From: Methanolobus sp. WCC4
GTDB lineage: Archaea > Halobacteriota > Methanosarcinia > Methanosarcinales > Methanosarcinaceae
Assembly: GCF_038022665.1 (NCBI RefSeq)
Contig: NZ_CP150629.1
Coordinates: forward strand, 850,480-914,479
Direction of reading: 5' to 3'
DNA length: 64,000 nucleotides
Shown piece after piece: positions 6,126 to 22,598 of the stretch. A model generated the notes under the pieces. It had not been told where the DNA came from, did no database searches, and was given only the letters and a program-made list of their open reading frames with translations. Position numbers and translations under genes: made by a program. Positions within the stretch are counted from its first letter, which is position 1; each line of letters starts with the position of its first letter.

Positions 6126-7852
6126 TCGAAATCCCTGCCCATGTAGATCAGCTCATGGATCAGGTCTGCGATACCGTCCACTGGAGCACGGACTTGTTTC
6201 ATGCTGTCCCTGTCCCTGATGGTCACGGTGTTATCCTCTATGGTCTCATAGTCGATGGTGATGGAATATGGTGTTCCTATCTCATCATTCCTTCTGTACC
6301 GTCTTCCGATGGTACCGGAATCATCATAGGATACAAGCAGTCCCTTCTGCTTCAACCCGGTTTCAATTGTCCTTGCAGGACCGATGAGCTCTTCCCTTGT
6401 GAGGAGCGGAAGGATAGCTACCTGTACAGGTGCTACTTCCTTTTTGAGCCTCATGACGATCCTTGCCTCTTCCTCTTCCGTTTCTTCCTTTCCGGCGACC
6501 ATTTCCTCTTCAAAGGCATGTTCCATTGTGGAATAGAATATCCTGTCTATGCCGTATGAAGGTTCGATCACATGAGGTATGATGTTCTCACCGCTGATCT
6601 TCACAGTCTCTTCTGCGAACTCCACAATGTCTCCGGGTACAGTGACCTCCTCGCCATCGACGGTGACGGTGATGTTCTCCTGTTCGAGTTCTGCCTGGCT
6701 CAGGGCTTTCAGTGCATCTGCAACAGCCTTTGCCTTGCCCTTGAAGAGAGGTCCGAGCTTGCCCATATTAGGCTTGACCACGAATTGCGTGACCATCTTA
6801 GGTTCGCTGTATTCCCTGTATATCGAGAGTTCGGTCTTGCTGACATTTGCATGTGCCTTCAGGTCATAGTCCGTCCTGTCTGCGATACCGACGACCTCTA
6901 CCCAGCCGAACCTGTCGGTCTCGATCTCAGCATCCCAGCAGTCGATGGCATAGTGTGCCATCTCATCCTTCATATGCTGCCTGAATCTCAGTTTGTCCGC
7001 TGCGATTCCCACGCGCTGGAGGAAGTGGTTGGTGAGTCCTATCTGGTATGCAAGGAACTCATGTGCAATGGTTCCTTTCTCAACTGCTTCACCAAGGCTC
7101 ATCTGCTCTATCTCTTCCCTGTCCTGTGCCTCATCCGAGTAGAGGTTGATCACAGTATCTGCGAACCTGCCAAAATCAGGGTGCTTCTTATCGTTCGGGT
7201 CGATGAATATCTCGGCTTCTGCCTGAGTGAATTCTCTCAGTCTTATGACACCCTGTCTTGGTGATATCTCATTACGATATGACTTCCCGATCTGGGTAGC
7301 ACCGAATGGGAGTTTCTCACGATAGAAACGTGCCAGTCTCAGGAAGTCCACGAACATTCCCTGCGCGGTCTCAGGACGCATATATCCCTGTCTGCCTGTT
7401 CCCGGACCGATATTGGTCTTGAACATGAGATTGAACTCGTATGTCTCACCAAGTTCACCTTCACACTCGGGGCATTTCACACTGTTCTCTGTGATCACCC
7501 TGTCGAGTTCCTGGTCACTGAGGGTATCCGGTATGGCTACGTATTTCTCTACCAAGTGGTCTGCCCTGAATGCCTCACCACAGTTCTTACACTCGCAGAG
7601 AGGGTCTGAGAAACCACCTACATGACCGGAAGCTACGAAAACATCTTCGATACCAATGGTAGGTGCCTCTATCTCCATGTAGCCTTCCTGGACGACATAG
7701 GTCTCACGCCAGATCTGCTCAATTCTGCGTTTCAATGTACTTCCCAGAGGTCCGTAATCGTAGAATCCGGCGGTACCTCCGTAAAGTTCGAAAGAGTTCC
7801 ATAAGAATCCCCGGCGCTTGGCCAGTTCTATTACCTGTTCATATTTATCCAT
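6104..7852 (-). CDS. glyS: Glycyl-tRNA synthetase (alpha2 type)
   Basis: Charges tRNA-Gly. The 582-residue protein is the single-chain class II enzyme of archaea and eukaryotes, not the bacterial two-subunit form. Seen: N-terminal KRRGFLWNSFELYGG; a zinc-type insertion with Cys-X2-Cys pairs (CECKNCGE and KCPECEGE, about 95-140); motif 2 FREFTQAEAEIF preceded by QIGKSYRNEISPR; motif 3 region EPSYGIDRIFYS; and a C-terminal anticodon-binding domain from about 470 with IGRRYRRNDEIGTP. An AGAGGA ribosome site lies about six bases before the ATG. A terminator hairpin overlaps its stop. It appears monocistronic. Confidence 0.95.
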   Translation of the reverse strand: MDKYEQVIELAKRRGFLWNSFELYGGTAGFYDYGPLGSTLKRRIEQIWRETYVVQEGYMEIEAPTIGIEDVFVASGHVGGFSDPLCECKNCGEAFRADHLVEKYVAIPDTLSDQELDRVITENSVKCPECEGELGETYEFNLMFKTNIGPGTGRQGYMRPETAQGMFVDFLRLARFYREKLPFGATQIGKSYRNEISPRQGVIRLREFTQAEAEIFIDPNDKKHPDFGRFADTVINLYSDEAQDREEIEQMSLGEAVEKGTIAHEFLAYQIGLTNHFLQRVGIAADKLRFRQHMKDEMAHYAIDCWDAEIETDRFGWVEVVGIADRTDYDLKAHANVSKTELSIYREYSEPKMVTQFVVKPNMGKLGPLFKGKAKAVADALKALSQAELEQENITVTVDGEEVTVPGDIVEFAEETVKISGENIIPHVIEPSYGIDRIFYSTMEHAFEEEMVAGKEETEEEEARIVMRLKKEVAPVQVAILPLLTREELIGPARTIETGLKQKGLLVSYDDSGTIGRRYRRNDEIGTPYSITIDYETIEDNTVTIRDRDSMKQVRAPVDGIADLIHELIYMGRDFESAGKAL

Positions 7853-8292
7853 GGATGATCCTCTGATTATATGAATGAATTATGAATTCATCGATATGCC
7901 CATTGCATTTAATAGTAACGAAAGCACTTTGAAATACGTATGGTCATATTGTGAGTAATCGTGTATGTGTTTTGGAAAAAAACTCTCATTACTCTTATAT
8001 GTATGTTCATACTTTCTATGTGTTGAGCAAGGTCTAATCTCAATCAAATCATATCATATCGTACCACCATCTTATATGATTCAATTGGTCATTTCAACAC
8101 TGGCCTTGCTCTTCCTATCGAAAATCTTTTTCTTTGATCATATTGACATCTAATCTATCTGCTGTTCTTCCATTGCTATGGCTCTTCGATGGTTTTGATG
8201 TTGTCGCCATAATATGTTAAAAAAGAACTGTGTGGGGTTTGGACAAAACCCCTTTGTTTCCACTGGAACGAACAAATATAATAATAATAAGG
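7853..8292. other. 440-base gap between glyS and the aldolase-family gene
   Basis: No convincing gene is seen. The part next to 7853 must hold the glyS promoter (both flanking genes run on the minus strand), and a terminator hairpin lies at 8234-8252. A 62-codon open frame at 7965-8153 on the plus strand has no ribosome site and reads like chance hydrophobic codons from AT-rich DNA. The middle part (about 7900-8200) is AT-rich and has no structure I could identify. Confidence 0.5.
8221..8252 (-). terminator. Terminator of the 8293-9087 gene
   Basis: A perfect 7-base inverted repeat, GGGGTTT (8234-8240) and AAACCCC (8246-8252), is followed on the minus strand by a run of T (the plus strand has six A just before 8225). 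It lies about 40 bases after the stop of the upstream minus-strand gene and is well placed to end its transcript. Confidence 0.55.
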
Positions 8293-9087
8293 TCACTCTG
8301 AATTGAGTGCTTCTTCTGCTGTCATTCCCTGGTGGACTATCTTTGAGATGTGTGACACAAGCTTTGTAGGGTCTTCTGACTGGAAGACATTCCTTCCAAT
8401 TGCCACTCCTTTTCCACCGGCTTCAAGGGAATCATGGATCATCTCAAGAAGCTGTTTCTCAGTATCCATCCTTGGGCCACCTGCGATAACTATTGGTACA
8501 GGGCATCCTGCAACGACCTCTTTGAAGGTATCGATGTCACCGGTGTAACTCGTCTTCACAATGTCAGCACCAAGTTCTGCACCAATCCTTGCTGCATGCT
8601 TTACATAGTCTACATCGTGTTCTGAACCCACCTTTGGTCCTCTTGGGTACATCATGGCGAGAAGTGGCATACCCCACTCATCACATTTGCGTGCGATATA
8701 TCCCATATCCTGAAGCATTTCCGCTTCATCATCCGCGCCAACATTGACATGAATGGACACTGCATCTGCACCTATCTTTATTGCTTCTTCGACATCTGTG
8801 ACGATAACCTTGTGGTTTGGATCAGGTCCAAGTGAGGTTGAAGCTGAGAGGTGAATGATAAGTCCTATATCCCTGCCATATCCGCGGTGTCCGTGCTTTG
8901 GAAGTCCCATGTGCCCGAGTACCGCATTTGCTCCACCATCTGCTACTTTATTTACCATTGCCGGGAGGTCAATGATCCCTTTTATCGGTCCTGCTCCAAC
9001 CCCGTGGTCCATGGGTATGATTATCGCATTCCCTGTATTGCGTTCGAAGATCCTTTCCATCCTGACAGATTTGCCAATTTCACTCAT
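8293..9087 (-). CDS. ADH synthase / class I fructose-bisphosphate aldolase family protein (paralogue)
   Basis: A 264-residue TIM-barrel protein closely similar to 2-amino-3,7-dideoxy-threo-hept-6-ulosonate (ADH) synthase at 25305-26102. Key blocks: [15 protein letters not shown] (substrate loop), [20 protein letters not shown] with the Schiff-base Lys, and [19 protein letters not shown] for phosphate binding. I start it at ATG 9087 ([13 protein letters not shown]), because this matches the paralogue's N-terminus; the longer open frame to 9240 would add 51 unrelated residues running into the dUTPase gene. Unlike its paralogue it stands outside the aro operon, so it may be the fructose-bisphosphate or 6-deoxy-5-ketofructose-phosphate enzyme; this cannot be settled from the sequence. 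Confidence 0.85.
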
Positions 9088-9151
9088 GTTCGCATCATTG
9101 CCTCTATTATAGATAATACTAACGTAAAATTGCGTAAAACGGGTTACTGTG

Positions 9152-9664
9152 TCACAGATTCTCATGCTGGTATTTGCCACAGTATCCTTCTTCAAGTTCA
9201 CTGTGAAGGTCAAAGAACAGCAATTGCATGACACGTGCATTCTTTTTCAACCTGAACCCATTGGGGTTGTGAACTACAAGCATTGACTCGCTTCTTCCTC
9301 TATATCCTGAATCCCAGACCGCTGTCCCTATATTCGCTCCGCATCTGAGCAGAGTGGACCTTGGTCTTGCAATGGCAGCAAGGTCAAGAGGAATGTTCAC
9401 TATCTCATTGAATGTGATCTTGTATACTCCCTGATCAAGATGTGCCCAGCCATTCTCATCGAAATCCACAGGTTCAGTTGAAGGTGTCTCTCTTTCACTG
9501 TTGTCAAAATCAACTGCACCTGCACTGTTGTACATCTCTATACCTTTGAGTGTCAGTTCGACGCTATTAGGCTGGAGCTGGGTCTCTGTATCTATCGTGT
9601 TCTCAACAAGTGGTGTCTCGCAGTTGATCAGTGCTCTGAGCTCATTTCTTGATAGAAGGGTCAT
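9152..9664 (-). CDS. dut: Deoxyuridine triphosphatase (dUTPase, DCD/DUT family)
   Basis: Removes dUTP to keep uracil out of DNA and supplies dUMP. The 170-residue length and blocks fit the archaeal DCD/DUT family: [11 protein letters not shown] (residues 30-40), [11 protein letters not shown] (about 98-108, the arginine/serine phosphate-binding motif), [14 protein letters not shown] (about 114-127, with the catalytic Asp), and [18 protein letters not shown]. The family includes both dCTP deaminase and dUTPase; the WDSGYRGR form favours dUTPase, but a bifunctional enzyme cannot be excluded. It lies 64 bases upstream of the aldolase-family gene on the same strand. Confidence 0.85.
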
Positions 9665-9898
9665 GGTTGTAGGTCTTTTTGATCGGATATATTTGTTTGG
9701 TATATGTTGTGTCGCAGGGTATTATGTTAGTGTAAACACAAATTATTGTAAACCAATCAGTTTATATGTATTATTGTACATGAGTATTATGGTGAGTTTG
9801 GAACGTTTTTCGATCACTCACTTTGATATTGTGTCAAAGAACGAGTTAGGGAATTCGTGAAGAATGATATAAAAAGATAATTTGAAGGAGTGAATGAT

Positions 9899-10111: not shown

Positions 10112-10359
10112 TATCAGTTCCTCTTTTGTTCTTTTTTAGTATTTGTTCTGTATCTGGTATTATTCCTGTTCTGAATTCCCATTTTTTTTATTCCCTGCTT
10201 AAAACAACACACCTTATATACTAATTACATTATTTCTAATAAGGGTCAGTTTCCTTCAGGGCAAGTGGGTTGGTCTACTCTCTCTGAATATGTAGTTGTG
10301 TTTCATGCTATCGGGATCGGTTCGTATATCCTCTTCATGGGAGCTCAGGGGTTCGTTCA

Positions 10360-11874
10360 ATGGGAAAAGAAATATCGGATAAGGGACAGGCAGACTATTT
10401 CTTATTTGATACAGGAAATCCCTATATGTCCCTTTTCAAACACAATAAAGCTGTTATGCTTGTCATCGACCCTGCTACTTTCGACATAGTAGATGCTAAC
10501 ATTTCAGCATGCGATTATTATGGGTGGCCCCTGGAAGAGCTCACAAGTATGAGGATCGATGAGATCAACACTCTTTCCTCAGAGGACATAAGAGCTGAAA
10601 TGCAAAATGCTGTGAATGAGAAAAGGAACTATTTTCTTTTCAAGCACAAGCTTGCAAGTGGAGATATACGTGATGTGGAGGTGTACAGCAGCCCTGTTGT
10701 AGTGAATTCACGTGCTCTTCTTTATTCTATCATACATGATATCACTGAGCGGAAAAAGGCAGAGGATGAACTGAAGGCCCGGGAGATGCAGCTTCGCACC
10801 GCGCAGAAGATCGGGCGTATCGGTAGCTGGGCAATTGACATGGATTCCGGGGAAGTGAGCTCATCTGAAGAGGCAAGAAGGATATACGGCTTCGAAGGGG
10901 ACAGGTTAACGATCGAGGCGATCCAGATGATCCCTCTGCCGGAGTATCGCCCGATGATGGATGAGGCCTTGAAAAGTCTTATTAAAGAGGGAACAACCTA
11001 TGACATCCAGTTCAGGATAAAAAGACAAAACGACAGTGTCATCCGTGACATCCATTCAGTTGCAGAATATTATGCTGAAAAGAATATGGTCATAGGTACT
11101 ATTGAGGATATCACTGAACGCAAAAAGGCCAATGATGCACTATTGCATGCAAAGATAATGGCAGAGGCTGCAAACAAGAGCAAGGATGAGTTCCTGGCAG
11201 CAATGAGCCATGAGCTACGTACTCCGCTTACCTCTGTTATCGGTTTTTCAGATGTGCTTCTGGACGGTACCTCTGGTGAGCTTGATGAGCGACAGGCCCG
11301 CTATGTGAGTCATATCTCTGATGCAGGAAAGCACCTGCTGAAGCTTATAAATGATGTGCTAGATCTCTCAAAGGTGGAAGCCGGTAAAATGGAACTTCTG
11401 TATGAGGATTTTTCAGTAGGGCTTGCGATCGATGAGGTTCGAACATTGCTTTTTCCTCTCGCAAAGAGCAAACGTATAGGTATTGGTGTTGAGCTTGATC
11501 AGCAGGTCGATACTGTCTATGCAGACCGGACCAAGTTCAAACAGATCCTGTACAATCTGGGAAGCAACGCTATAAAGTTCACTTCAGAAAGGGGTTCTTT
11601 GAACATTCATGCGAAATGCCCGGATGGTGTTCTAATTGTCAGTGTACAGGATACTGGTATTGGCATATCTGATCAGGATATCGATAAGCTCTTCAATCCC
11701 TTCATTCAACTGGATTCCTATCTCACCAATGATCATAAAGGAACAGGTCTTGGGCTTTCTCTTGTAAAGAAGTTCGTGGAACTCCATGAAGGTAGGATCT
11801 GGGTTGAAAGTGAGGTTGGTAAAGGAAGCAAGTTCACTTTCTCGATACCGGTTGGGGATGGTAAGGATAATTAG
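10360..11874 (+). CDS. PAS-PAS sensor histidine kinase (soluble)
   Basis: A 504-residue cytoplasmic kinase with no membrane segment. Two PAS sensor domains (about 20-130 and 145-255), each ending with the PAC-type DITERKKA motif, precede a HisKA dimerisation domain with the phosphorylated His284 in MSHELRTPL. The ATPase domain follows (about 385-500) with NAIKFT (N box), DTGIGIS (G1) and GTGLGLS (G2), so the kinase looks complete. No receiver protein gene is next to it. Methanosarcinaceae carry many such kinases with unknown signals. A weak AGGGG site precedes the ATG. A 248-base upstream gap has room for its own promoter. Confidence 0.92.
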   Translation: MGKEISDKGQADYFLFDTGNPYMSLFKHNKAVMLVIDPATFDIVDANISACDYYGWPLEELTSMRIDEINTLSSEDIRAEMQNAVNEKRNYFLFKHKLASGDIRDVEVYSSPVVVNSRALLYSIIHDITERKKAEDELKAREMQLRTAQKIGRIGSWAIDMDSGEVSSSEEARRIYGFEGDRLTIEAIQMIPLPEYRPMMDEALKSLIKEGTTYDIQFRIKRQNDSVIRDIHSVAEYYAEKNMVIGTIEDITERKKANDALLHAKIMAEAANKSKDEFLAAMSHELRTPLTSVIGFSDVLLDGTSGELDERQARYVSHISDAGKHLLKLINDVLDLSKVEAGKMELLYEDFSVGLAIDEVRTLLFPLAKSKRIGIGVELDQQVDTVYADRTKFKQILYNLGSNAIKFTSERGSLNIHAKCPDGVLIVSVQDTGIGISDQDIDKLFNPFIQLDSYLTNDHKGTGLGLSLVKKFVELHEGRIWVESEVGKGSKFTFSIPVGDGKDN

Positions 11875-19127: not shown

Positions 19128-19796
19128 TTGAGTTCTACACTAATTGTCCTTAACCTCAAAACATACCTTGAGGGCACAGGCGAAGGCGCCGTAAAGGTTG
19201 CACAGGCATGTAAAGAAGTTGCAGATGACAGCGGAATTGAAATTGGTGTTGCACCACAGTTCTGTGATATATACCGCGTTGCATCACAGGTTGACCTGCC
19301 TGTATACTCACAGAGTCTTGACCCGGTAGGGGCAGGCAGTTTTACAGGACATGCATTCGTCCAGTCCATCAAAGACGCAGGCGCAGTTGGAACCCTTATC
19401 AACCACTCCGAATGCCGTCTCACACTCGCGAATATCGATGCATCCATCACAACTGCAAAGGACGCAGCTCTCAAAACAATAGTCTGCACCAACAACGTTG
19501 CAACTTCAGCAGCAGCAGCAGCACTAGGCCCTGATTACGTTGCAGTTGAACCACCAGAGCTTATTGGCTCCGGCATCCCAGTCTCAAAAGCAGACCCTGG
19601 GGTAGTCACAGGTTCAGTTGATGCAGTAAAAAGGATTAACCCTGCAGTACAGGTTCTCTGTGGAGCAGGAATCTCAAAAGGTGAGGACCTTGCAGCAGCT
19701 CTTGAACTTGGTTCAGTTGGCGTTCTGCTGGCATCAGGTATCGTGAAGGCTGCTGATCCAAAGGCTGCACTTGAAGACCTTGTGAGCAAGGTGTGA
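19128..19796 (+). CDS. tpiA: Triosephosphate isomerase (archaeal short form)
   Basis: Interconverts dihydroxyacetone phosphate and glyceraldehyde 3-phosphate. At 222 residues it is the shorter archaeal tetrameric type. Catalytic residues are visible: Lys in LNLKTYLEG (residue about 11), His in LINHSECR (about 90), Glu in VAVEPPELIGSG (about 140), and the phosphate loop GAGISKGED with LLASGIVKA. The start is TTG at 19128, with GGAGAG about eight bases upstream. The 178-base gap after fae-hps suggests a separate promoter. A hairpin overlaps the stop codon. Confidence 0.95.
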   Translation: MSSTLIVLNLKTYLEGTGEGAVKVAQACKEVADDSGIEIGVAPQFCDIYRVASQVDLPVYSQSLDPVGAGSFTGHAFVQSIKDAGAVGTLINHSECRLTLANIDASITTAKDAALKTIVCTNNVATSAAAAALGPDYVAVEPPELIGSGIPVSKADPGVVTGSVDAVKRINPAVQVLCGAGISKGEDLAAALELGSVGVLLASGIVKAADPKAALEDLVSKV

Positions 19797-19815
19797 CTTT
19801 AACGTCACGCATTTT
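19793..19815 (+). terminator. Terminator of tpiA, overlapping its stop codon
   Basis: GTGAC (19793-19797) pairs with GTCAC (19804-19808) across a 6-base loop; the TGA stop lies inside the 5' arm, and GCATTTTTCTC follows. A short hairpin plus T-run in the correct orientation. Confidence 0.45.
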
Positions 19816-19998
19816 TCTCTGATTTCACTCTTTTTTATTATTTTGTATTATCAAAAGATAATATCTAAATAAAAACTTTTTTTTATATTGTCTGCATATA
19901 CTGTTTGGATGTTGTTCGCAGACTAACCGGTATTGCGGGCAAATTTCGTGAAACACTAAATGTATATTTTCATTGATGGGTAACCAAAGGTGGGTTAA

Positions 19999-20445
19999 GT
20001 GGCATTAGAAGATGAATTGATTAAGATAAAAGAAAGCACAGTTGAAGAATTAAATGATGTTCTCTTACAAAAAATAGATGACTCTCTTATCGATGAGTAT
20101 CCCGCAACAGGGATGCATCAATTCTATGCTGAATCATTTGAATACAAAGATTATGGGTACAATATTGCAATTAACATGTTTTTTAATATGGAAAAGTTTG
20201 GTGAAGTGTGTTGTTGTAAAGATTCATTGTTTTTGGGTGTAACTCCATGTCAGGATTCAGTAGTCCTTTGTGATGAAGCAAGGAAGTGGTCTAAGAATTA
20301 TAGTTTCCTTTGTTTTTCGCAGCATATTGGAAAAAATAATGTCAATGATGTGATTTTGGATGTACAGTCGAAGGTTAGGGATCAAGTTAATTCTCTGTTA
20401 AAAATGCAGAAATCTACTGCCCTTGAAATGCATAGAGTACGGTGA
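19999..20445 (+). CDS. Hypothetical protein of an AT-rich two-gene island
   Basis: A 148-residue acidic protein I do not recognise. It starts at GTG 19999 with an AGGTGG-like ribosome site about ten bases before. It has a helical N-terminus (residues 1-35), a Cys-rich centre (VCCCKDSLFLG at about 70-80, TPCQDSVVLCDEARKW at about 82-97) and a helical C-terminus. No membrane segment or signal peptide. Base composition is clearly more AT-rich than the flanking tpiA and tyrA genes, as is that of the next gene, 20 bases downstream. The pair looks like a recent acquisition. No function is assigned; the cysteines could bind metal. Confidence 0.65.
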   Translation: MALEDELIKIKESTVEELNDVLLQKIDDSLIDEYPATGMHQFYAESFEYKDYGYNIAINMFFNMEKFGEVCCCKDSLFLGVTPCQDSVVLCDEARKWSKNYSFLCFSQHIGKNNVNDVILDVQSKVRDQVNSLLKMQKSTALEMHRVR

Positions 20446-20465
20446 CACTTTTTACGTGATATATT

Positions 20466-21236
20466 ATGCCAACTATAAAACAGTTAACAGATAAAGGCGA
20501 TATCATAAGCATTGTACGCATACTTCGTAGTTCAAATAATCCTAAAACTCAATTAGAATCTCTAAAAGCAATATCAGTATTAGCTAAAAAAGGAATTGTT
20601 GACAACACTGTTATTGATAGGATAAATGAAATTTTATCTAATGCTAATAAAAATATATGTATTCAGGCTGCATTTGCAATTGGAGATATGGCGGAAAAAG
20701 GTGCTTACAAAGAAGAATCTCTACAACCTTTAATTGATTTATCATTTGGACACGATTCAAATATTCGTTGGAGTACAACATTTGCATTAAAGACACTTAT
20801 TAAATGTGGTATTTTTGCAGAAGATGCGACTAACTTCTTTTCAGAAAAATTACATGATAGATTTGATAAAGTATCATATAATGCTGCTTTTGCTATTGGT
20901 CACCTTGCAGAATGGGGAATGGTTGATAAATCAACTATTTCGCAACTTATTGCTTTATTGTCCGATAAAAATGTTGTTTGCCGTAAAGCTGCTGCTTTTT
21001 CATTAAGAAATCTTGCAATAAAAGATATTTATGATTCAACTTCTGATTCCGTTGAATTAAAGTCTTTGAAAAAAGTCTTGGATGATTCAGATCGGAGTAC
21101 AAGAATCTATGCTTCTGAAACAATTGAATTGTTGAAAAAGAAGGGTGTATGTGATTCTGTTAATGGCAAAGATAGCAACAGGGATGTAAACGTAAAAGTT
21201 GTTGCTTCTGATGGAAACACCATTAACATCCGATAA
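20466..21236 (+). CDS. HEAT-repeat protein of the AT-rich island
   Basis: A 256-residue protein made of about six HEAT/armadillo-like helical repeats across residues 15-225 (recurring units such as AAFAIGDMAEKG, AAFAIGHLAEWG and AAAFSLRNLAIKD). A short unrelated tail (about 235-256) ends in a small beta-like segment. HEAT solenoids are protein-binding scaffolds. The gene is very AT-rich compared with its neighbours and lies 20 bases after the unknown gene at 19999, so the two are probably one operon. The likely role is to bind the partner protein or a host target; this is inference. Confidence 0.8.
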   Translation: MPTIKQLTDKGDIISIVRILRSSNNPKTQLESLKAISVLAKKGIVDNTVIDRINEILSNANKNICIQAAFAIGDMAEKGAYKEESLQPLIDLSFGHDSNIRWSTTFALKTLIKCGIFAEDATNFFSEKLHDRFDKVSYNAAFAIGHLAEWGMVDKSTISQLIALLSDKNVVCRKAAAFSLRNLAIKDIYDSTSDSVELKSLKKVLDDSDRSTRIYASETIELLKKKGVCDSVNGKDSNRDVNVKVVASDGNTINIR

Positions 21237-21275: not shown

Positions 21276-22598
21276 TTATCCACGAATACTACACCCAATA
21301 CCCTTCAGTTGCCTCTCCACTTCCTGATGCACTTTCTCAGCCTCAACATCACCCATGATCATTACACGGAATGTAACACTCAGTCTTTCAGTTCCTTCAA
21401 CACCCTCATACCTGTCAATGATCTCAATTGAAACGATATCATCATTACAGGAAACAAGCTCCATGATTACATCTGCATTAGCTCCTTCAGGTATCAGCAC
21501 CGATATATCCCTCAGGTGATGCTCAAAGTTCTCGAGCTTCCACTCATGCAGTTCCTCTTCATCTAAAAGATAGATGTTCTCGATCTTGAGAGGTATCATC
21601 CTGCTTCCACCATCCAGAACGACATCTCTTGGGCTTACCTTCTCGACAATTCCTGTGTGCACTACACCTGAGTAGATATGTTTGACACCGATCTCCTGAC
21701 CTATGGAAGCCAGCAATTTTTCAAACTCAGCGATCTTTGAGTTTATGAGCTTGTCAGAGCGGCGAAGTGCTGATGAAGTATCTCCAAAATGTACTGCTGC
21801 CTCTCTCATTTTGTTGGTGAAGGCTTCTACGTCCTTTTTTCTGACGATGGAAGACATCTCACTGCATTGCTGCATGAAAGCATCGTGAACTTTGAGCACT
21901 TCCAGATTCTCCATCTGGATGTAGGCGTAGAGGTATGGGTTCTGTCCGATTATCCTGCCGACAAAATCAAGCATGATATCGTAGACCGGGCTCATGAACC
22001 TTCTTGATTCGTTCACGCTGAAATCAAGGGCATCAAAGGTGGTTCCTATGGTGATGTATGCGAAGTGTGTCAGTCCCTGAACAACGGAAACGAACCTGTC
22101 ATGCTCTGCGGGGGTAATCACTTCGATGTGTGCACCGTTGTCCTCAAAAAGTGAGCGCATGACCGGGAACCACTTATCGCAGCGTCCATTGATGGGTGTT
22201 AGAATGAATATCTGTCCATGCAGACTTGGTATGGATGGTCCGAACATAGGGTGAGTACCGAGTATCTCCACATCTTTGGGAGCGTACTTCTTCATGGCCT
22301 CGGTGGGTCCGACCTTAAGTGACGTGAAATCCATAAGAAGGCTTCCACTCTTCATCTTAGGTGCTGTCTCACTGATGACCCTCTCGGTTATATTGATGGG
22401 TACTGTTACGATAACAATGTCGCTGGTGCTAATTGCAGCATCAAGGTCACTGGCGAACTCAACTCCCATTCGCTCAGCAACTTCAACTTTCCCGCTGCTG
22501 CCCCAGACAACGACCTCGTAATCGTGGTTCTTAAAAAAAGGAGTGAACCACTGTCCCATTTCGCCGGTACCGCCTATGATGAGGACCTTCAAACTCAA
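21276..22598 (-). CDS. tyrA: Prephenate dehydrogenase with a C-terminal extension
   Basis: Oxidises prephenate to 4-hydroxyphenylpyruvate for tyrosine. The N-terminal Rossmann domain has the nucleotide motif IIGGTGEMG (residues 7-15), with LLMDFTSLK and GTHPMFGPS as TyrA-specific blocks (about 105-130); the helical dimer domain runs to about 290. Residues about 300-440 form an extra domain containing DISVLIPEGANADVIMELV and SIEIIDRYEGVEG, resembling a regulatory ACT-like fold, though I cannot confirm that. The gene is last in the aro operon, and its ATG overlaps the aroE stop by four bases (ATGA). Confidence 0.9.
   Translation of the reverse strand: MSLKVLIIGGTGEMGQWFTPFFKNHDYEVVVWGSSGKVEVAERMGVEFASDLDAAISTSDIVIVTVPINITERVISETAPKMKSGSLLMDFTSLKVGPTEAMKKYAPKDVEILGTHPMFGPSIPSLHGQIFILTPINGRCDKWFPVMRSLFEDNGAHIEVITPAEHDRFVSVVQGLTHFAYITIGTTFDALDFSVNESRRFMSPVYDIMLDFVGRIIGQNPYLYAYIQMENLEVLKVHDAFMQQCSEMSSIVRKKDVEAFTNKMREAAVHFGDTSSALRRSDKLINSKIAEFEKLLASIGQEIGVKHIYSGVVHTGIVEKVSPRDVVLDGGSRMIPLKIENIYLLDEEELHEWKLENFEHHLRDISVLIPEGANADVIMELVSCNDDIVSIEIIDRYEGVEGTERLSVTFRVMIMGDVEAEKVHQEVERQLKGIGCSIRG

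Follow-up and report, generated by a model that had tools for sequence, protein, structure and literature searches.

A probable HEAT-repeat adaptor of an archaeal ESCRT-type system encoded at a gene-swap site of Methanolobus

Introduction

Methanogens possess an ESCRT type named Meth_adaptin, in which a Vps4 ATPase with a MIT domain and ESCRT-III are accompanied by an SPFH protein with a zinc ribbon, two adaptin-appendage proteins of the Ig plus TBP kind, and GOLD and ProX components (PMC10936438). The type has been defined through a Vps4 tree, and the text on it names neither a HEAT component nor a shared peptide (PMC10936438). HEAT and PEGA are among the abbreviations explained for Fig. 3 of that work, and its authors may have drawn a HEAT protein in this figure. 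In eukaryotic adaptins, a HEAT trunk is fused to an Ig/TBP appendage. Our literature searches returned no paper joining HEAT, ESCRT-III and Methanosarcina or Snf7/PspA with HEAT, and none on a hotspot in Methanolobus, on the peptide DSVVQRS or on amyloid signalling in Methanosarcina.

Here, we analyzed a pair of genes, A and H, in a stretch of 64,000 nucleotides (the window) from Methanolobus sp. WCC4, a genome of the Methanolobus group assembled as a single 2.85-Mb contig. The window's genome and four loci of H relatives contain parts of the Meth_adaptin set (PMC10936438), namely a Vps4-type AAA ATPase, an ESCRT-III-like protein, an SPFH protein and large proteins with zinc-ribbon-like ends, the latter read here as the appendage proteins of this type. 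The window's locus differs in that its H lies outside the ESCRT-type locus. We use the name Meth_adaptin by resemblance of parts and not by a Vps4 tree, through which the type is defined, and our ESCRT-III and MIT matches stay under the Pfam cut-offs. We propose that this known archaeal ESCRT type probably includes H as a new accessory component.

Results

A and H lie on one strand between two metabolic genes (Table 1). The prephenate dehydrogenase gene is convergent with A, H and tpiA, and beyond it follow the genes for shikimate dehydrogenase (aroE) and 3-dehydroquinate dehydratase (aroD), both above their NCBIfam cut-offs. In the leader of A, GGTGGGTTAA precedes the GTG codon, which was placed behind AAAGGTGGGTTAA. 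Judged by sequence, GGTGGGTTAA and the T-rich/TATA-like stretch would be the ribosome site and the archaeal promoter. The hairpin scan at the end of tpiA found one candidate where shuffles gave 0.7; M. vulcani, G059 and G060 have near copies of this hairpin where tpiA meets the gap.

Table 1. Features at the A and H locus, in positions of the window.
Feature	Position	Strand	Description
tpiA (triose-phosphate isomerase)	19128..19796	+	Left border; NCBIfam PRK04302 316 bits, cut-off 132
Terminator-like hairpin GTGTGACTTTAACGTCACGC	19791..19810	+	End of tpiA, T-rich after; consensus scan only
Leader of A	19797..19998	+	T-rich/TATA-like stretch at ~19877-19890, conserved in alignment of three leaders
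Gene A	19999..20445	+	GTG start; orphan of 148 aa; invariant Cys C72, C73, C84, C105
Gene H	20466..21236	+	ATG start; 256 aa; HEAT/ARM solenoid, helices within residues 4-225, low-confidence tail 230-256
Tail of H, NRDVNVKVVASDGNTINIR	21177..21233	+	Resembles lead-in of relatives' DSVVQRS-type peptide; stops before core
Prephenate dehydrogenase	21276..22598	-	Right border; NCBIfam PRK08655 761.8 bits, cut-off 464

The GC content is 0.338 for A and 0.316 for H (GC3 0.18), compared with 0.456 for the window, and in a sliding profile the pair forms the minimum at 0.32-0.33, followed by a second-lowest stretch at about 0.36. The four copies of A have 0.31-0.34. For H, we measured five copies, leaving out G104, G122 and G185; four of them have 0.32-0.35, including the copy of G020 in a locus of 0.456, and the fifth, from G109, has 0.395 (locus 0.402). 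Since the copies elsewhere are mostly AT-rich too, AT-richness travels with the genes. Among the three carriers within the genus, pairwise dN/dS ranged over 0.21-0.30 in A and 0.14-0.27 in H; A compared with the more distant G001 gave 0.12-0.17. We hence conclude that both are maintained proteins under purifying selection. The preliminary description of an AT-rich pair with 20-base spacing between conserved metabolic genes was confirmed in both open reading frames, in composition and at the borders. Its view of H as a HEAT-repeat protein is borne out by Pfam matches above cut-off and a 13-helix model, and that of A as cysteine-rich by six cysteines in 148 residues, four of them invariant in the four known copies.

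H matched Pfam HEAT_2 with 48.1 bits (E 1.5e-12, cut-off 27.7) and HEAT with 43.4 bits (E 2e-11, cut-off 23.5). The AlphaFold2 model shows a HEAT/ARM solenoid of 13 helices at a mean pLDDT of 86.7; from residue 230 on, the tail is modelled at low confidence with two short strands. The structure matches shown (Z 21-26), such as designed ARM proteins, Vac8 and beta-catenin, indicate a solenoid and nothing more specific. The likeness to the ARM-repeat adaptors Vac8 and beta-catenin (VIA-align Z ~22 over 221-244 residues) goes along with only 15-17% identity; designed ARM proteins score equal or higher and many solenoids tie, and a shared function therefore does not follow.

In G109, G104 and G185, the HEAT solenoid gene adjoins or nears genes for large appendage-like proteins. 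Unlike in eukaryotic adaptins, however, HEAT and appendage-like parts are separate proteins here, and H has only 13 helices; compared with an adaptin large subunit, it has no fused appendage and consists of the solenoid and a 27-residue low-confidence tail only. Pfam Adaptin_N gave 25.2 for the window's H, under the cut-off of 37, and 49.2 for the G109 relative, where plain HEAT yet reaches 107. No entry titled adaptin or COPI was among the 50 entries shown of the structure search, with an adaptin trunk still possible. There is no evidence for descent of H from or with eukaryotic adaptins.

Relatives of H were found in 8 of 237 genomes of the class, five of them outside the genus. A strict search of the phylum (G185 H as query, E 1e-25) matched 5 of 392 sampled genomes, all among the known eight; a looser cut-off was avoided because HEAT proteins cross-match. 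No H relatives were found in viral contigs. Outside the genus, four of the five H genes stand in an ESCRT-type locus, i.e., four of eight overall. In G122 (L077), an ESCRT-III-like gene (10148-10705), a 53-aa open reading frame, H (8897-9706) and a MIT-AAA gene of the Vps4-like kind (7743-8885) lie together, with only 11 bp between H and the latter. G109 (L017) and G104 (L018) carry a row of an ESCRT-III-like gene, a Vps4-like AAA gene, a gene for a protein of 816 and 812 aa, respectively, and H. In G185 (L076), an SPFH gene, genes for two tagged proteins (see below), two small genes and H are found with a divergent ESCRT-III-like gene, and this 8-kb contig shows no Vps4. The H gene of G020 stands among unrelated genes, far from the ESCRT gene of that genome.

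The window's genome has an ESCRT-type locus of its own (L130), in which genes for an SPFH protein, an ESCRT-III-like protein, a Vps4-like AAA ATPase and two tagged proteins lie side by side. H is not part of it: the gene lies at 870,945 of the contig and the ESCRT-III-like gene is found at 2,281,353, 1.41 Mb apart. The Vps4-like ATPase of L130 reached 151.9 bits for AAA and 46.1 bits for AAA_lid_3, both above cut-off, with no MIT match reported; the copy of G122 gave 25.7 bits for MIT, under the cut-off of 30, and MIT was not among the matches shown elsewhere. Snf7 matches were likewise under the cut-off of 27.3 for the ESCRT-III-like proteins of L130 (18.7 bits) and G109 (21.1), which are 83% identical, and the G122 homologue had no Pfam match. 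The SPFH protein of L130 matched Band_7 with 32.3 bits (cut-off 23.6), and a candidate zinc ribbon in it fell just under the cut-off (Zn_Ribbon_1, 24.3 bits; cut-off 25). Of the two appendage candidates in L130, one showed Ig-type matches below cut-off (NPCBM_assoc, CARDB) and the other none.

Of the 237 class genomes, 37 have an ESCRT-III-like gene, two of them as a partial match. All eight genomes that bear H are among these, and H occurs in only 8 of the 37. This co-occurrence has a hypergeometric probability of 1.8e-7, a value that ignores kinship; within the three genera that could be counted (15/27, 5/11 and 2/7 ESCRT-III-like-positive genomes), the product, calculated by hand, is 0.003. 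Whatever the statistics, the link between H and ESCRT is physical in four genomes.

In six of the eight H proteins, the solenoid is followed by a HYGDNIxTQIxDSVVQRSNIG-type peptide, which we refer to as the tag; in G109 and G104, its core is the variant DSFVYKSSI. In several H proteins, more sequence follows the peptide, e.g., a zinc ribbon. The same kind of peptide is found in the large proteins of the ESCRT-type loci and in satellite proteins encoded elsewhere, some with two or three copies about 20-25 residues apart. Fourteen tagged proteins were examined, picked because they have the peptide. HHalign linked three groups of them with probabilities of 95, 94 and 36. Helped by these links, we read the large tagged proteins as appendage-like from their sequence and setting. 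Neither for the 580-aa protein of L130 nor for the tagged satellites at L131-L133 did Pfam recognise an Ig/TBP domain.

In the window's genome, the tag pattern gave nine matches at six places, two in the ESCRT-type locus and four at L131-L134. The reversed control pattern gave none there and 27 over the same 111 family genomes. Thirty of 114 pattern matches were dropped because the strict motif was not coded. Of the family genomes, 29 have an ESCRT-III-like match, and 24 of them showed the strict tag, compared with 9 of the 82 genomes lacking such a match (Fisher 2e-12, uncorrected; n=111). As a strict ESCRT marker, the tag was rejected: 9 of the 33 strict-tag genomes had no ESCRT-III-like match, and 5 of the 29 positives had no strict tag. 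The genomes G006-G009 of genus g5 have the strict motif with the ESCRT-III-like match absent. The satellites at L131-L133 are three proteins whose N-terminal parts are related and which have one to three tags; that of L133 has a sulfatase-modifying-factor domain (158 bits). L134 encodes a PEGA-repeat protein (179 bits) with one tag.

Moreover, the C-terminal domain of the long G059 H recurs in two other proteins: one encoded in the ESCRT locus of G109 (pairwise E 9e-22 at 34% identity), the other a tagged protein of G020 (pairwise E 1e-12 at 29% identity). This common domain had no Pfam match above cut-off. It reads ..VTYGEI..LLTALVVSK..PGKRFF..ELERIWDYW and is encoded at L014:9760-10104, L017:12049-12450 and L140:2248-2709.

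The tag pattern had no match in the window, whose own H is without the peptide core. Its last 19 residues, NRDVNVKVVASDGNTINIR, are identical in M. vulcani. A similar stretch in the H of G122, SDDNKNINIR, runs directly into DSIVQKSNL, and we infer that the window's H ends in a tag truncated ahead of the core. Being conserved in two species, the tail is not simply decaying. No tail of this kind was found in other proteins of the loci examined.

A is an orphan protein, found in four of the genomes searched. It matched 4 of 111 family genomes; among 237 class genomes there were five with a match, i.e., the same four and one at chance level, and among 392 phylum genomes again five, i.e., three known carriers and two at chance level. 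The weak matches in G158, G336 and G384 (E 0.007-0.008) are partial, one of them full of stops, and were rejected as chance. A of M. vulcani PL 12/M is 88% identical to the window's A. The 62% identical copy of G001 lies on a 6-kb contig without H; this genome is 76% complete, and its H could be missing for that reason. C72, C73, C84 and C105 make metal binding by A possible, as far as sequence tells. An AlphaFold2 model from the four sequences was unusable (pLDDT 38.9).

A was not assigned to a known family: no Pfam or NCBIfam match reached its cut-off, and PADLOC gave no match. Its best match to PDB sequences reached only E 0.38, and PHROGs gave two weak partial matches to families of unknown function (E 0.005 and 0.006). 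Phage and plasmid records gave no match, and neither did viral contigs in a search tuned to close relatives only. Compared with the region before the tag in the three groups of tagged proteins, A gave HHalign probabilities of 0.1-1.2; as a TBP-type domain, it thus has no profile support. Relatives of A in 21 stretches (the window, the G001 contig and the ESCRT and tag loci) were only those of the window and of G001 themselves.

All 27 genomes of the genus have tpiA, and in all of them prephenate dehydrogenase adjoins it, cut by the contig end in G047. Three (G000, G059 and G062) have A and H in between, with order, strand and a spacing of 20-25 bp alike in the three species. In the other 24, the gap is 26-73 bp in four, 180-264 bp in three, 418-426 bp in seven and 884-2997 bp in ten; the seven include G047, whose contig ends inside prephenate dehydrogenase. 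A 96-aa gene was seen in three gaps of the 420-bp class (L056, L060 and L063) and was assumed from the length in the other four.

The cargo of the large gaps is diverse. G046 has a ThsB-like TIR gene (E 2e-71) followed by a PDC-M50A protein (E 2e-30; L050:6136-7102), G061 an OLD-like AAA/TOPRIM protein (E 9e-29; L049:729-2564) and G060 an AAA_35-type ATPase that matches PDC-S27 weakly (E 1e-6; L048:685-2918). G063 has two DUF1673 proteins and a small protein, G039 a DUF4367 protein with DNA-similar inserts in G045, G048 and G041, and G042 and G052 have a gene like the 96-aa one plus other pieces. Domain and PADLOC searches took in the proteins of five of these ten inserts; the DUF1673 proteins of G063 and the DUF4367 protein of G039 had no PADLOC match. 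The ThsB-like TIR, PDC-M50A and OLD-like cargo thus occupies the same gap as A and H, but none of these families matches A or H.

Fragments resembling tpiA, with up to 93% protein identity, are found inside the gaps of G042, G045 and G041 (L051, L055 and L062), and pieces resembling prephenate dehydrogenase in those of G041 and G063. These partial duplicates of the flanks suggest that cargo enters within foreign flanks by recombination, and we think that it is probably exchanged in this way through the conserved flanking genes; the tpiA fragments would be traces of such exchange. We built a DNA tree from three genes of the right flank in the 12 genomes that make up the crown of a 26-genome protein tree. 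The three carriers do not form one clade on it (p-AU 9.6e-7), and the window's genome groups with G043, which has a gap of 61 bp. It would seem from this that A and H stayed or travelled together, but recombination of the flanks themselves could also give this pattern. We consider the gap a confirmed swap site and A and H a confirmed accessory pair.

Discussion

We read H as an accessory HEAT-repeat adaptor of an ESCRT-type system of Methanosarcinales that resembles Meth_adaptin, with a probability of roughly 0.55. This reading draws on the HEAT sequence and modelled fold of H, the gene order of its relatives, the co-occurrence with ESCRT-III-like genes, the common peptide and C-terminal domain, and the turnover of cargo at the swap site. 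The surface of the solenoid would bind a partner. In most members of the family, the C-terminal peptide (..IxDSVVQRSNIG type) would hold H to the large tagged proteins encoded in the ESCRT locus; in one H, the common C-terminal domain would also anchor it. The resulting assembly would contain H, tagged proteins, the SPFH protein, the ESCRT-III-like protein and the Vps4-like ATPase, and H would select or position cargo in it. H would have moved with A into the exchangeable cassette between tpiA and prephenate dehydrogenase. A is the obvious candidate for a partner or client and is probably co-transcribed with H. As the window's H is without the peptide core, it may be recruited in some other way. 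That it would still serve ESCRT is the weakest step of the argument. Several points speak against the adaptor reading. The window's H is distant from the ESCRT locus and without the peptide core, H is present in only 8 of the 37 ESCRT-III-like-positive genomes, the H of G020 also stands apart, and the peptide of H in G109 and G104 is a variant. Tag and ESCRT-III-like gene do not fully coincide, HEAT/ARM solenoids look alike whatever partner they bind, the ESCRT names rest on weak models, and defence-type genes are among the other cargo of the swap site.

The swap site also brings to mind an antiviral module, in which H would sense or scaffold and A would be the effector. Besides the TIR/PDC-M50A and OLD-like cargo of G046 and G061 and the weak PDC-S27 match of the G060 ATPase, the patchy spread and the carriers' scatter on the tree of flanking genes would fit such a role. 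However, with E-values up to 10 allowed, PADLOC 2.0.0 gave no family for the A and H of the window, and for the H of G059 only E 0.003 to HEAT-ARM_XIII; no effector domain was recognised in A, which was also without a match in phage and plasmid records and, for close relatives, in viral contigs. The cargo also includes genes that are not defence-like (DUF1673 in G063, DUF4367 in G039 and the three DNA-similar inserts), and H outside the genus stands mostly in ESCRT-type loci. We regard an antiviral function as unlikely. Of the undescribed defence-type pair suggested by the preliminary description, the location is supported, as the site also takes defence-type genes; the defence part is not, since PADLOC has no match for the two proteins and the strongest evidence on H points to ESCRT. 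Its picture of an accessory, foreign-looking two-gene module of patchy distribution, a HEAT scaffold with a small neighbour, is a fair one. The pair is not conserved in place throughout the relatives: it is at the site in the three carriers among 27, AT-rich there too. As an obligate pair it failed, with A once without H (G001) and H five times without A, and a second site with both genes was looked for and not found.

These same separations, and the occurrence together at one site only, would also suit two functionally unlinked accessory genes that share a permissive gap between convergent genes. We doubt this, given that order, strand and spacing of 20-25 bp are the same in three species despite the turnover of cargo, that both genes are under purifying selection and that the pair seems kept or moved together in carriers that are not one clade on the flanks. 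Very improbable, in our view, is a generic HEAT protein with another role, as in PBS-lyase-like HEAT proteins, and unrelated to ESCRT. H does match NCBIfam PRK09687 and phycobilin-lyase families, though only at scores far below cut-off, and its solenoid matches offer no specific relative, but such matches are usual for HEAT proteins, and the gene neighbourhood, the common peptide and the common C-terminal domain of the family stand against it.

If the adaptor reading is true, an archaeal ESCRT type that is known through gene neighbourhoods would gain a HEAT adaptor and a short peptide for recruitment, and HEAT and appendage-like parts, fused as adaptins in eukaryotes, would belong to one archaeal machine. 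The peptide would make membership of this machine searchable across genomes and bench-testable in a methanogen. A bolder scheme, to which we give a modest chance, is a split plug-in adaptin of Methanosarcinales. Here, separate HEAT solenoids of the H family and appendage-like chains would be gathered onto ESCRT-III, Vps4 and SPFH by a stackable beta peptide (VNIxDSVVQRSxI-type repeats), and scattered satellites (PEGA, sulfatase-modifying-factor-like, HEAT) would use this peptide as a recruitment code. Adaptors of the H type would escape to swap sites with partners like A, and some, as in the window, would drop the core and be re-aimed by the partner.

Finally, the analysis marks a compact gene-swap site of the genus that takes defence-type genes. 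The frame of the AAA_35-type ATPase of G060 in this gap runs on upstream across one stop codon and is possibly a broken gene.
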